Origin: an uncultured Elusimicrobia bacterium
GTDB taxonomy: Bacteria; Elusimicrobiota; Elusimicrobia; UBA1565; UBA9628
Direction of reading: 5' to 3'
Assembly: GCA_903830945.1 (NCBI GenBank)
Contig: CAIKVT010000072.1
Span: 1 to 64,000 of the forward strand
DNA length: 64,000 nucleotides
Part shown: in pieces, positions 125 through 5,048 of the stretch
How the letters are laid out: each line of letters starts with the position of its first letter
Position numbering within the stretch: position 1 is the first letter of the stretch
Position numbers and translations under genes: made by a program
The notes under the pieces: generated by a model
Databases searched by the model: none
What the model was told of the DNA's origin: nothing
The model's input: only the letters and a program-made list of their open reading frames with translations

Positions 125-445
125 TCACACAATGAAATGACGCCGCCGCAAAAAGGAACGGGACGATCTTAGCAAAGCCCGATAGACTTCCCCGACAAAA
201 GTCCGGTCGAGGCCTTCGCGTCCCGCCTGCCGCACGACCGACCGCAGGATGATGGCCTCGCGCCGGGTGTCGCGCAGGCGCGTCTTAAACGGCTTTATGG
301 CCGCGACGAGCCGCTGGCGAGCCGCAAGCAGGCGGACGATGCGACGGTCGAGGGCATCGACGCGGCGGCGCAGGATGACGAGCTGTCCCCCTAACGCCAC
401 GGACGCCCCCCGCGGAAATCGACGACCCGCTCGGGGAAGATCCAT
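125..445 (-). CDS. AroQ-fold (chorismate mutase type II-like) protein
   Basis: A 106-residue protein with the AroQ helix pattern: a first helix LRRRVDALDRRIVRLLAARQRL (about residues 25-46), a Lys-containing turn (KPFK), then the DTRREAIILRSV block that matches the D-x-x-R-E signature of chorismate mutases, and a last helix near GEVYRALLRSSR. The family includes chorismate mutases and isochorismate-pyruvate lyases (PchB). The Gln expected near the end of the last helix appears to be Phe or Leu here, so activity on chorismate is not assured. The start at 445 lies 3 nt after the stop of the B12-radical SAM gene; a GTG at about 400 would give a more typical length. Its operon partners include an isochorismatase-type hydrolase domain, which makes a chorismate- or isochorismate-derived substrate attractive but unproven. 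Confidence 0.7.
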   Translation of the reverse strand: MDLPRAGRRFPRGASVALGGQLVILRRRVDALDRRIVRLLAARQRLVAAIKPFKTRLRDTRREAIILRSVVRQAGREGLDRTFVGEVYRALLRSSRSFLRRRHFIV

Positions 446-448
446 GCC

Positions 449-2410
449 TCAGAGCCCAAAACCGCCCTTATACTCGTGGAACATCTTGGCCAGGATGAGG
501 AGCTCCGGATGAGCGCGCTGAAGCCTGGGCAGGACGATGCGGACGCGGTCGCGATATCCGGCGAGCTTGGCCCGGAACTCGGGGGAAAGGGATGTCTCAT
601 CCCAGTGGAAGCGCTTGAGGTCCAGGATCACGCGGCTGCGGCAGCGCTCCAGCGACTGGCCCAGGTCTCGCCACATGCGTTCGGCCTCGCTGCCGCTGAG
701 CTTGCCCTCGAACTTGAGCCAAACCTCGCGGCGGGCGTGCAGGAACTCGACCTGCACCCGGAAGTTCTGCGCCTTGAGGCGCGCCGCCAGGGACTCCCAG
801 ACCTTGTGGTTGACCCAGAAAACCCCGGGCTGGCGGTAGGCCGTGCGCCGCAGCTTGGGGTGCTGAAAGAGATCTAACTTGAGCGCCAGCCCGGTCCAGG
901 CCGCCGCGCCGACCCCTGCCCATGACGTAAGCCGCTCGCTGCGCGTAGGCGCGCCAACGGCCGCGTGCACGCGTCGCTCCAGCTCCGAGATCCAGTGCCG
1001 GACGTTGCGGTTGGGCCCCAAGACCCGTCCGGCCTGGAAGATGGGATAGGCCTTGCGAATATCGCGGGCGAAGAGTCCGGCCTTCTTGACCAGCATCGGG
1101 TTAGCAGAGTCCTTGAGCTTGAGATAGCCGTTAAGCCAGACCTCCACCGCGCGATAGATGCTCGGCCCCAGGCGGCGGTAATCCTCCGCGAAACAACGCC
1201 GCTGGATCTTCTCGATCTGCGCGGCGGAAAGCTTGGGGTGCTTGACCATGGCTGTAAAGCCCGAGGCGTTGCGGCAATAAAGCTCCGGATCGGCCGCAAG
1301 ATCCTCGCGCAGCCGGCCTTCCGCGGTCACCCGTTCCCAATAAGGGGTCCCCGGGGTGGGGCCGTAGATGAGGAACTGCGTCAAGGCCGGCTTCATGGCG
1401 AGCAGTCCGTCGAGTTCGGCGGCCACCGTGCTCTCGTCCTGGTAGTCAAAACCCACAATCATGGAAGCCAAGATGGTGATGCCGTGCTCACGCAGCTCCC
1501 GGAAGATCTCCTCGGCCGACCGGCCCGCGCGCTTCTCGTAGCCGGAGCGCGTGCCTTCGTAGCCGATCCAGACCCCGTCGATCCCCATCTCAAGGAGCTC
1601 CTCGATCTTGTACTGGCTGAGAGCCTTAATGCTCGCGAAGGCGAAGATGGAGAGAGGCCGGCCGGACTTGACCACCAAGTCGTGGAATTCCATGGCCCGC
1701 TCTTTGTCGAGCAGGAAATCCTCGTCGATGACCGTGAATGACATATGCGGGTCCATGTCCAGGTAGCGCTCGACCACATTATAGATGTCGCGGCCCGTCG
1801 GCAGGAGCTTGACGTGCTGGCGCTTGAAGAAATGCGAGGTGCAGCAGAAGTCGCAACCGTTAGGACAACCCAGCCCGGCGAAGATCATGCCCGTGTTTCC
1901 CGCGCGCTGCCCAAAAACCTTAAGCTTGCTTACGATCAAGGGGTGCTGGTACGGCCCGGGCTGATGCCCCTCGCCCAGGAGTTTGCGCATGAACTCCACG
2001 CCCTCACCGCGACAGATGTGGTCAGCGTAAGGCTTGAGGAACTCCTCGCCCAACACCGTGCCATAGCCGCCTAGGATGATCTTGGCCTGAGGGGAGTGCT
2101 CGCGGATGAGGGCCACGATCTCCTTCGCGCGGTGGAAGGTGGAAAGGATGAAGGAGACGCCCACGTAGTCATACCCATTCTTGAGCTCACGAATAAGTTC
2201 GCTCTTGGAAGGATACTGCAGGACCACGGTCGGGACTTGGATGTTCGCGGCGATATATTCGAGAGAAAAGTGGTGATGGATGGCGCGCGGACTGAAGAGC
2301 CCTTGCGCCCGTGTGACCTGGCCGAAGAGCAGCTCATAACCCACGCTGGGCCCATCGCCGTGCTTGGGACCCAACGGCCGGCATATGCTGGTCAAAAGAA
2401 CTCTTTTCAT
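449..2410 (-). CDS. B12-binding domain radical SAM protein
   Basis: 653 residues. The N-terminal third has a cobalamin-binding-type Rossmann fold (VGVSFILSTFHRAKEI, then IILGGYGTV and ICRGEGVEFM at about residues 75-140). The radical SAM core follows, with the cluster motif CPNGCDFC (CxxxCxxC) at about residue 182 and a classical tail of the domain (GIDGVWIGYEGTRSGYEKR, then ILASMIVGFDYQ). The roughly 230-residue C-terminal region is not recognised. Relatives of this architecture catalyse radical methylations or rearrangements, often in natural-product or lipid pathways. The DxHxxG cobalamin motif is not evident, as in many class B enzymes. It sits 9 nt after the RlmN-like fusion gene and 3 nt before the AroQ-like gene. 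A TAAAAT motif 6 nt before the ATG could drive a leaderless transcript. Confidence 0.88.
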   Translation of the reverse strand: MKRVLLTSICRPLGPKHGDGPSVGYELLFGQVTRAQGLFSPRAIHHHFSLEYIAANIQVPTVVLQYPSKSELIRELKNGYDYVGVSFILSTFHRAKEIVALIREHSPQAKIILGGYGTVLGEEFLKPYADHICRGEGVEFMRKLLGEGHQPGPYQHPLIVSKLKVFGQRAGNTGMIFAGLGCPNGCDFCCTSHFFKRQHVKLLPTGRDIYNVVERYLDMDPHMSFTVIDEDFLLDKERAMEFHDLVVKSGRPLSIFAFASIKALSQYKIEELLEMGIDGVWIGYEGTRSGYEKRAGRSAEEIFRELREHGITILASMIVGFDYQDESTVAAELDGLLAMKPALTQFLIYGPTPGTPYWERVTAEGRLREDLAADPELYCRNASGFTAMVKHPKLSAAQIEKIQRRCFAEDYRRLGPSIYRAVEVWLNGYLKLKDSANPMLVKKAGLFARDIRKAYPIFQAGRVLGPNRNVRHWISELERRVHAAVGAPTRSERLTSWAGVGAAAWTGLALKLDLFQHPKLRRTAYRQPGVFWVNHKVWESLAARLKAQNFRVQVEFLHARREVWLKFEGKLSGSEAERMWRDLGQSLERCRSRVILDLKRFHWDETSLSPEFRAKLAGYRDRVRIVLPRLQRAHPELLILAKMFHEYKGGFGL

Positions 2411-2419
2411 ACCACTATT

Positions 2420-4027
2420 TTAACTTTTCCTCGTCTCCATAGAAAGCTTCGCGATCACATCCGCGGCCCGTGTCACCACCGAGAACCCTCGCGCCATGGC
2501 CCGCAAGGCTGCGACATGCTGCTCCTCGCTGCGGGCCGCAGTCGCGTCCGCCGAGACGAAGGTCAGACAGCCCAGGTCGAAAGCGGCCCGCGCCGTGGAT
2601 TCCACGCAGAGGTCGGTCTTGACCCCGGCCAGAACAAGCTGCGAGACCCCCTCGGCGCGCAGCCGCCCCTCCAGGGCGGGATTGGAGAAGGCGCTGTAGC
2701 CGGTCTTGAAGAACACGTCGGCCGCGCGGGGCTCGAGCACCGCGGCGACCCGAGCCCCAGGGGAGCCCGCCAGGCAGACCTCGTCCCACCAATCTCGCAT
2801 CAGCGACCCGTCCAGCGTTGAGCCTTCGTGCGCGTGGACCGTGAACAAGACCGGCCGGCCGGCCCGACGGAAGGCCTCAATAAGGCTCCGGATATTGAAC
2901 AGCGCGGCCCGCCCGGGCGGCAGATAGGCCGGGGAGTGCCGGTCGAGGAAGAACTCCTGCATATCCACGACCAGGAGGGCCGCATGTTCCGGCTCGAAAG
3001 CCCGGTCGCGTGAGGACTCCTGATCCAACGCCTGCATCCAGGCCTCAGCTCTCTGCGCCATGGAGTCGGCCGTCACGTAGCCGCGCCGCTCGCGACGCTC
3101 GGCGCGCAGTCCGGCGGACGCCGCGCCCTTGAGGCTCTGGCTCCAGAGCTGGCCGCACGAGGTCTCGGACTCGATCTCCTCGGGGAAGCTGGGCGAGAGG
3201 ATGACCTCGAAACCCCGGCGCTCCAGCTCCGCCGCCGCGGCGCGGATCGGCTCCGGCGCCTGCGTCCAGACGAAGGTCGTCTGGCTGCGACGCGCCGAGA
3301 GGGTGGGATTGATGGGAGTAACCTTGACCAGAAAATGCTCCGGGTCGAAGACCCGGGCGATGGCGGCCGCATCCAGGGCCTCGCCCGGACCCGGGGCGAA
3401 ATTAAGGGTCACTTTACGGTCGCCCGGCCGCACGAAGCGACGGCCGTAGTCCGCCACTTCCTCCAGGGTCCACTTCTTGATGGGAACTATCTTGTGGCGG
3501 ATCTCCTCATCCGTCGCGTGCAATGAGAACTGGAGCTGGAAGCGGCCGCCCGGGAAGCACTCATCCTTGACGCGGCGCAGCTCCTCGAACCAAGGCGCGA
3601 TGGCCGGGCTCTTGGGAGCCACTGTGGACACGCTGGCGATGAGGCCCGGCCGGACCGACTCGCGCGCCAGGTCGCGCAGGGCCTGCGGGACCGCGGGGTT
3701 AAGGGAGGGTTCGCCCATGCGCGCGAAATGGATCTTGACCTTGGGGTGGCGCGCGAGGTCCAGGCCGGGGTTCTGCGCGGCGATGAAGCGGATCTGTTCG
3801 AGCATCTCCGGCGCGGAGAGGTTGCCATGATAGCCGGTCGCCCCCGCGTCGCACATGCGGCAGCCGACCGCGCAGCCGGCCTGGGTCGAGATCATCATGA
3901 CCCACTTCTCGGCCTTGGGCACCCCCGGCTCCATGGTATCCACGAACTCGATGCGGCGTGCCGCATCGAGTTCGGCCAGATAAAGCGTCGCCAATCCCGG
4001 CACGTCGCGCCTTTCTACGATTTTCAA
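2420..4027 (-). CDS. RlmN-like radical SAM domain fused to isochorismatase-type cysteine hydrolase
   Basis: 535 residues with two domains. Residues 1-310 resemble RlmN/Cfr: the 4Fe-4S motif CAVGCRMC, a GEPSLNP segment like the GEPLxN of RlmN, and ETSCGQLWSQ, which matches the methyl-carrying cysteine region (Cys355 in E. coli RlmN). The second essential RlmN cysteine (Cys118, in LCxSSQ) is absent; the equivalent here reads WVMMISTQ. Residues 345-530 are an isochorismatase/nicotinamidase-fold hydrolase with its triad: Asp in LLVVDMQEFF, Lys in VFFKTGYSAF and Cys in KTDLCVES. Start is TTG: its TTGA overlaps the stop of the upstream flavoprotein gene. The fusion implies that a radical SAM step and a hydrolase or amidase step act on one pathway. 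A role as a 23S rRNA methylase is unlikely given the missing cysteine and the operon. Confidence 0.85.
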   Translation of the reverse strand: MKIVERRDVPGLATLYLAELDAARRIEFVDTMEPGVPKAEKWVMMISTQAGCAVGCRMCDAGATGYHGNLSAPEMLEQIRFIAAQNPGLDLARHPKVKIHFARMGEPSLNPAVPQALRDLARESVRPGLIASVSTVAPKSPAIAPWFEELRRVKDECFPGGRFQLQFSLHATDEEIRHKIVPIKKWTLEEVADYGRRFVRPGDRKVTLNFAPGPGEALDAAAIARVFDPEHFLVKVTPINPTLSARRSQTTFVWTQAPEPIRAAAAELERRGFEVILSPSFPEEIESETSCGQLWSQSLKGAASAGLRAERRERRGYVTADSMAQRAEAWMQALDQESSRDRAFEPEHAALLVVDMQEFFLDRHSPAYLPPGRAALFNIRSLIEAFRRAGRPVLFTVHAHEGSTLDGSLMRDWWDEVCLAGSPGARVAAVLEPRAADVFFKTGYSAFSNPALEGRLRAEGVSQLVLAGVKTDLCVESTARAAFDLGCLTFVSADATAARSEEQHVAALRAMARGFSVVTRAADVIAKLSMETRKS

Positions 4028-4908
4028 ATCCAGTCCTCCAGGAAGTCGATGCAGCGCATGGCCGCTTTGATGCCGGACCCCGCGGCGACAGCCACCTGCC
4101 GATCAGCATCCCCCGACGCGTCTCCAGCCACGAAGAAGCCCGGCGGCAGGCGCCCGGCAGAGAAGGGCAGCGCCGCCGGAACCTTTCCTACGAGAACGAA
4201 CAGCGCGTCCGCCGCAAGCCGCAAGCTGCCGTCACGGCCCGCGATTTCCAGGGCCTCCAGACGCCGCCGGCCCTGCAGACGGCATATGGTGGCCCCAAGG
4301 ATCAGGACGATGCGGGCGGTTTCTCCCAGGCGACGGCACAAAAGACGATGCGCTTTGATGGACCCGGCGCGGCAGACCAGATAGACCCGGCGGGCTTGGC
4401 GCGCCAGCGCCAGGGCCTGGTGGACGGCGGCTTCCCCGCCCCCGGCCACGACCACGGTCCTACCGCGCCAACGCGAAGGGCGGTCGAACGCCGCATGGAA
4501 CAGCCCCCGGCCTCGGAGCCGCCCTTCCCCGGAGATGCCCAGTCCCTTGAACTCCGCGCCCGGACAATAGACCACGGTCCGGGACCTCAAAAGCCTCCCC
4601 CCCTGCAGACGCAGGACGAACCCGCGCCCATGGCGGCCGACTCCGCGCACCTGAGCGCGTCGGGTCCGCAGACCCCAGCGCCGCGCCTGCCTGACCCAGC
4701 GGTCCATCAGCCGGCGGCCGTCTATCCCAGACGGGAAGCCGGGATAGTTCTCGATGCGTCCCAAAAGCCGCGCCTGCCCTCCCAAACGGTCCTGCTCCAC
4801 CAAAAGGGCGCGGTAGCCCGCGCGGGCCAGATGCAGGCCCGCCGCCAAGCCGGCCGGCCCCCCGCCTACGATCACGGACTCCCAGACGATGTCGTTGGGC
4901 ACAGGCAT
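4024..4908 (-). CDS. Thioredoxin-reductase-like NAD(P)H flavoprotein without CxxC
   Basis: 294 residues from the ATG at 4908; the ORF track start at 5019 adds an unconserved leader. There are two dinucleotide folds: the FAD site VIVGGGPAGLAAGLHLARAG near the start and the NAD(P)H site VVVAGGGEAAVHQALAL in the middle. The C-terminal FAD motif is FFVAGDASGDADRQVAVAAG. In thioredoxin reductases the redox CxxC precedes the second fold; here the same place reads LFHAAFDR, so both cysteines are gone. It may pass electrons from NAD(P)H to a ferredoxin, flavodoxin or directly to the radical SAM partners. It is first in the minus-strand operon and overlaps the next gene by TTGA. Confidence 0.85.
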   Translation of the reverse strand: MPVPNDIVWESVIVGGGPAGLAAGLHLARAGYRALLVEQDRLGGQARLLGRIENYPGFPSGIDGRRLMDRWVRQARRWGLRTRRAQVRGVGRHGRGFVLRLQGGRLLRSRTVVYCPGAEFKGLGISGEGRLRGRGLFHAAFDRPSRWRGRTVVVAGGGEAAVHQALALARQARRVYLVCRAGSIKAHRLLCRRLGETARIVLILGATICRLQGRRRLEALEIAGRDGSLRLAADALFVLVGKVPAALPFSAGRLPPGFFVAGDASGDADRQVAVAAGSGIKAAMRCIDFLEDWI

Positions 4909-5048
4909 AAAGTCTATCAGTGTCCGAGGCCCCGCAACAAGCCGAACCCCATCGCTCGGCGGTCCCGCGGCGGAAGCTTCTAATGAATATCCGGAATTGC
5001 TACCATAAGCGCCTTCCACATCCCCCAGTCCATGGAGGCATGACCCCG

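Follow-up and report, generated by a model that had tools for sequence, protein, structure and literature searches.

The fusion gene and its operon

At the start of the window, by which we mean the whole 64,000-nucleotide stretch of DNA analysed, a compact operon on the reverse strand runs in the order thioredoxin reductase (TrxR)-like flavoprotein, fusion gene, B12-binding radical SAM protein and chorismate mutase-like protein, after which the contig ends (Table 1). The genes overlap or are separated by gaps of 3–9 bp, and the start codon of the fusion gene (4027) is preceded by the sequence GGAGGA and overlaps the stop codon of the gene before it (TTGA). The start of the TrxR-like gene (an ATG) was placed from the starts of its orthologues; the open reading frame itself opens at 5019.

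Table 1. Features of the operon, with positions counted from the first nucleotide of the window
Feature	Positions	Strand	Details
TrxR-like FAD/NAD(P)H oxidoreductase without CxxC	4024..4908	-	TIGR01292; overlaps fusion gene
Fusion gene, RlmN-like radical SAM domain plus cysteine hydrolase	2420..4027	-	535 aa, TTG start
RlmN/Cfr-like radical SAM domain	3113..4027	-	residues 1-305; hhalign to RlmN/Cfr
Met45, at the place of resolving Cys118 (RlmN) / Cys105 (Cfr)	3893..3895	-	alignments
[4Fe-4S]/SAM cluster motif C52-x3-C56-x2-C59, then family-invariant D60	3851..3874	-	54/54 in family
Cys291 of CGQL, equivalent of methyl-carrier Cys355 of RlmN	3155..3157	-	49/49 intact members
Isochorismatase-fold cysteine hydrolase domain	2462..2983	-	residues 349-522; PF00857, Foldseek
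Putative catalytic Asp355 of hydrolase	2963..2965	-	kept in 49/49 domains
Putative catalytic Lys441 of hydrolase	2705..2707	-	kept in 48/49 domains
Putative catalytic Cys474 of hydrolase	2606..2608	-	kept in 48/49 domains
B12-binding radical SAM protein	449..2410	-	653 aa; PF02310, PF04055; 9 bp after fusion gene
AroQ-type chorismate mutase / isochorismate-pyruvate lyase-like protein	125..445	-	106 aa; 3 bp after B12 gene

A preliminary description of the locus had proposed that an RlmN-like radical SAM domain is fused here to a cysteine hydrolase, and model searches bore out both halves: the N-terminal domain matched the RlmN model TIGR00048 (E-value 2.8e-18; 66 bits, cut-off 290) and the Cfr models (E-values of about 1e-17), and the C-terminal domain matched Isochorismatase PF00857 (E-value 1.2e-43, 149.6 bits, cut-off 27). 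The motifs VMMISTQAGC(52)AVGC(56)RMC(59)D and TSC(291)GQLWS can be read in the protein. Structure prediction of the full-length protein from an alignment of seven sequences gave a pLDDT of 71.2, the hydrolase half being predicted well (blocks from residue 440 onward at ~90) and the radical SAM half poorly; predicted alone, the radical SAM domain reached a pLDDT of 67.7 and had no PDB match at E≤1e-3.

Comparison of the radical SAM domain with RlmN and Cfr

Of class A radical SAM methylases, a review names RlmN and Cfr, which both act on RNA and use two cysteines, neither of them dispensable, the resolving one being C118 in RlmN and C105 in Cfr (PMC9692996). In RlmN, one SAM methylates Cys355, the radical derived from a second SAM turns the methylcysteine into a Cys-S-CH2 radical, this radical adds to C2 of the adenine, and Cys118 acts as the base that releases the product; in the C118A mutant a covalent enzyme-RNA adduct remains (PMC9692996). 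The fusion protein shares the radical SAM core of RlmN (TIGR00048, acting on C2 of 23S rRNA A2503 and tRNA A37), including CxxxCxxC, the glutamate that is E27 here and E105 in RlmN, MGEP, and the carrier cysteine of CGQL. It shares the same core and carrier cysteine with Cfr (TIGR04432, CfrAB, acting on C8 of 23S rRNA A2503), and a phmmer search matched the Cfr structure 9p0p (E-value 3.7e-11). It differs from Cfr in that the equivalent of Cys105 is absent, the score reaches 60 bits of 550, and there is no resistance context. From RlmN the family differs in having neither an equivalent of Cys118 nor the N-terminal domain, in its other invariant residues and in forming its own clade, and the fusion protein also differs in its added C-terminal hydrolase.

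We assigned Met45 to the resolving-cysteine column by alignment with RlmN and Cfr chains of solved structure and with RlmN of related genomes, and we followed conservation in an alignment of 54 members of the family with 24 RlmN/Cfr sequences. The partner cysteine of LCxSSQ, which the preliminary description had taken to be replaced (VMMISTQ), is missing from the family as a whole: the column holds Cys in 0 of 53 readable family sequences versus 24 of 24 RlmN/Cfr sequences, the family residues being Met (44), Arg, Trp, Thr and Leu (2 each), and His (1). That description had also raised the possibility of another cysteine at the Cys118 position, and the alignment with RlmN/Cfr revealed none. 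Outside the cluster motif there is no alternative conserved cysteine among the 54 family sequences, so no shifted cysteine replaces Cys118. The CGQL cysteine is kept, as had been noted; the Cys291 column is Cys in 49 of 51 sequences, the remaining two being frameshifted copies of one locus, and the cysteine persists in the motif variants CGGL, CGRL and NCGQH (G021, G025 and the three-gene forms described below).

The CxxxCxxC cluster motif is present in all 54 family members, and MGEP, S134 and E27 are also kept. Seven residues (D60, G68, R103, P138, K154, Q166 and W186) are invariant in 54 of 54 sequences and either differ from RlmN or are without a counterpart there, and active-site motifs have shifted relative to RlmN/Cfr, with GMGEP becoming RMGEP and CATG becoming CDAG. 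An hhalign comparison of the family with RlmN/Cfr (probability 99.9, E-value 1e-31) placed family columns 8-305 on RlmN columns 75-357; since the family begins at column 75 of the RlmN profile, the N-terminal RlmN domain (about 74 aa) is absent. The host genome encodes a separate, ordinary RlmN that has both cysteines and scores 283.5 bits to TIGR00048 (cut-off 290).

Distribution and phylogeny

A phylum-wide search with an alignment found the family, fused or split, in 52 of 340 Elusimicrobiota genomes and 27 of 100 genera, and this conservation excludes sequencing error or chance as the source of the cysteine pattern. Radical SAM domains 35–75% identical to that of the window protein have the same pattern, and the most diverged arrangement, the three-gene forms (35–42% identical), still keeps the Cys and Gly of the CGQ loop. 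In a quick tree the 50 family rows formed one clade (SH-aLRT 100) on a long branch, apart from both RlmN and Cfr. One scan of genome contigs, a weak test of other phyla, gave matches in Elusimicrobiota only, and a search of viral contigs gave no match to the family. The plasmid search returned Cfr and RlmN-type matches at 23–32% identity; the six we examined were Cfr, RlmN or RlmN-like, and the resolving cysteine was present in all five of the sequences read. A PRK14464-type RNA methyltransferase of Variovorax was considered as a cysteine-less relative and rejected because it has LCVSSQ. Our literature search found no description of the fusion, an absence that is not proof.

The hydrolase domain and its link to the radical SAM domain

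The preliminary description had seen an intact Asp-Lys-Cys hydrolase domain, and its triad of Asp355, Lys441 and Cys474 is indeed kept in 48 or 49 of the 49 domains compared. The predicted hydrolase half found its best Foldseek matches in EntB/AngB/VibB and BiuH (E-value 3.5e-12), with RutB also matched. It shares with isochorismatase-fold cysteine hydrolases (EntB/VibB/PhzD, BiuH, RutB, YecD) the fold, the Asp-Lys-Cys triad and the motif G-x-x-T-[DN]-L-C-V-E-S. It differs in that its score is below the cut-off of each NCBIfam model for a characterised member, that it keeps the Cys nucleophile, unlike EntB, and that it is joined to a radical SAM domain.

This joining takes several forms. In most lineages the two domains are fused; in others they are encoded by adjacent genes (e.g., in G044, G037, G203 and G187), and G154, G158 and G160 carry a three-gene set of hydrolase, TrxR-like protein and radical SAM protein. 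Exceptions are G039, whose hydrolase is encoded at some distance from the radical SAM gene, and G041, in which we looked for a hydrolase near the radical SAM gene and did not find one. Of all the evidence that the two activities form a unit, this conserved link is the strongest.

The TrxR-like flavoprotein

The gene overlapping the start of the fusion matched TIGR01292 with an E-value of 1.5e-53 and 181.6 bits, below the cut-off. Its product shares the FAD and NAD(P)H motifs of thioredoxin reductase, but the CxxC redox disulfide is absent from the window protein and its orthologues, having been lost across the family. With the disulfide gone, the protein is more likely to be an electron donor or other flavoenzyme than a thioredoxin reductase. 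The closest known TrxR-like flavoproteins without CxxC are NAD(P)H-dependent ones of the ferredoxin/flavodoxin-reductase type; unlike them, the family here is dedicated to this cluster. The operon is fixed in this respect: at 43 of the 50 loci whose contig extends far enough (53 loci in total), the cluster includes the TrxR-like gene. A TrxR-like match at E≤1e-40 is present in 40 of 52 carriers versus 1 of 288 non-carriers (Fisher p 4e-40, uncorrected for relatedness), and the sole non-carrier match, which has a TlpA-like gene beside it, resembles a typical thioredoxin reductase.

Lineage-specific neighbours

Beyond these partners the gene content varies. The B12 radical SAM gene adjoins the family gene in several lineages, and its own family occurs in 60 of 340 Elusimicrobiota genomes in varied gene neighbourhoods; we rejected it as a core component, as 37 of the 60 genomes that carry it are without the fusion. 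The chorismate mutase-like partner, which matched PRK11199 (E-value 4e-8), CM_P_1 (9e-7) and isochorismate lyase (1e-6), was found in the genus of the window. In several Elusimicrobiota (L055:4292-5701, L057:6640-8040 and L066:5810-7231), the gene immediately following the fusion or the B12 radical SAM gene encodes a tyrosine phenol-lyase-like partner, scoring 695.9–708.3 bits to TIGR02618 (cut-off 720.7). Another family has a MoaA-like radical SAM protein as partner, and in a third a complete, contiguous pantothenate/CoA operon (L131:1279-5874) encoding DUF2520, PanB, PanC, a split Dfp, type III pantothenate kinase and PanD stands directly before the TrxR-like gene and the fusion. Neither CoA biosynthesis nor tyrosine phenol-lyase was accepted as the pathway served, as each is present in some lineages only. 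A GMC oxidoreductase gene adjoins the B12 radical SAM gene in G016 and the fusion in G056 (loci L153:7446-11991 and L064:1956-5087), with a weakly matching tocopherol cyclase-like protein in L064 only. The tyrosine phenol-lyase, chorismate mutase and B12 radical SAM neighbours offer only a hint of small-molecule, perhaps aromatic, metabolism.

Proposed function

The preliminary description had suggested a repurposed enzyme rather than an rRNA methylase. This is well supported by what can be read from sequence: the resolving cysteine and the N-terminal domain are absent, the host has its own RlmN, the family is monophyletic on a long branch, and its partnership with the hydrolase and flavoprotein is fixed. 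On the other side, the clear homology to RlmN and Cfr favours the view that the protein still methylates RNA in their manner, with a different residue replacing Cys118 as the base. We regard this as highly improbable given the missing N-terminal domain and low score (66 of 290 bits), the normal RlmN in the same genome, the hydrolase fused or adjacent, the new invariant residues, some of them charged, and the indispensability of C118 in RlmN and C105 in Cfr (PMC9692996).

Our best reading, which we hold tentatively and would give a little less than an even chance, is that the protein couples a radical C1-transferase for a small molecule, which resolves its adduct in another way than RlmN, to a hydrolase of the amidase type. 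The features required for the first half of the RlmN reaction are kept and the cysteine of the second half is lost, which points to C1 transfer in which release falls to a different base or to the substrate itself. We infer the chemical steps, their order and the small-molecule substrate as follows. The N-terminal domain would act as a class A-type radical SAM enzyme in which a first SAM methylates Cys291, a step for which conservation alone is no proof. A second SAM would be cleaved reductively at the C52/C56/C59 cluster, with electrons probably supplied by the adjacent TrxR-like flavoprotein, and the resulting 5'-deoxyadenosyl radical would convert methyl-Cys291 to a Cys-S-CH2 radical. This radical may add to an sp2 carbon in the substrate, which would be a small molecule and probably anionic. 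With no Cys118 to act as base, deprotonation and release would need another group, which could be a family-specific residue (candidates being D60, H/R100, K154 and K235) or a group on the substrate itself. The hydrolase, through Asp355, Lys441 and Cys474, might then cleave an amide- or ureide-like bond in the same substrate or product, after or before the radical step. Counting against this scheme, the radical SAM half is too poorly predicted to set any candidate base next to Cys291, and partners beyond the hydrolase and the TrxR-like protein vary by lineage. A natural clade that has kept the carrier and dropped the resolving cysteine makes other routes of adduct release directly testable, and the constant association of its members with a hydrolase and a flavoprotein suggests that Elusimicrobiota have a small-molecule pathway not yet described.

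A more specific and speculative version, to which we attach little probability, would make the protein a natural 'half-RlmN' in which the substrate's own nucleophile, in place of a cysteine of the enzyme, resolves the Cys-S-CH2 adduct, so that the SAM-derived carbon becomes a methylene bridge or ring atom instead of a methyl group and the hydrolase opens or trims the product. If true, the reaction would be a new kind of one-carbon insertion, and no earlier class A radical SAM enzyme would have had a small molecule as its substrate.

Two other explanations compete with a C1-transferase coupled to the hydrolase. Methylation might have been abandoned, with Cys291 serving as a hydrogen-atom donor, as a thiyl radical or structurally, while the enzyme performs another radical reaction on a small molecule, such as a dehydrogenation, epimerisation or rearrangement. 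The family-wide loss of half of the class A cysteine pair and the many residues changed in active-site motifs (the RMGEP and CDAG shifts) would be in keeping with this, but the CGQ loop retains its Cys and Gly in every intact member, three-gene forms included, for which a methyl-carrier role is the easiest explanation, and we consider the loss of methylation rather unlikely, if a serious competitor. It also seems unlikely, a shade more so, that the two domains act on separate substrates and are fused or clustered for joint expression in a broader pathway, e.g., a tyrosine- or chorismate-derived one with the B12 radical SAM protein, tyrosine phenol-lyase and chorismate mutase. The distant hydrolase of G039, the lack of one nearby in G041 and the change of partner genes with lineage speak for such an arrangement; against it, almost every carrier has the hydrolase fused to or clustered with the radical SAM domain, and the minimal three-gene set of the most distant lineages includes it.

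Other radical SAM genes

In genome G034 the cluster with the normal fusion also holds, upstream of that fusion and of a B12 radical SAM gene, a further copy of the radical SAM domain that has diverged (36% identity; L065:6248-6964). In the genome of the window, whose 3.2 Mb contain 53 Pfam radical SAM matches, three radical SAM genes lie close together at and just past the window end (G000:C72:63664-66211).
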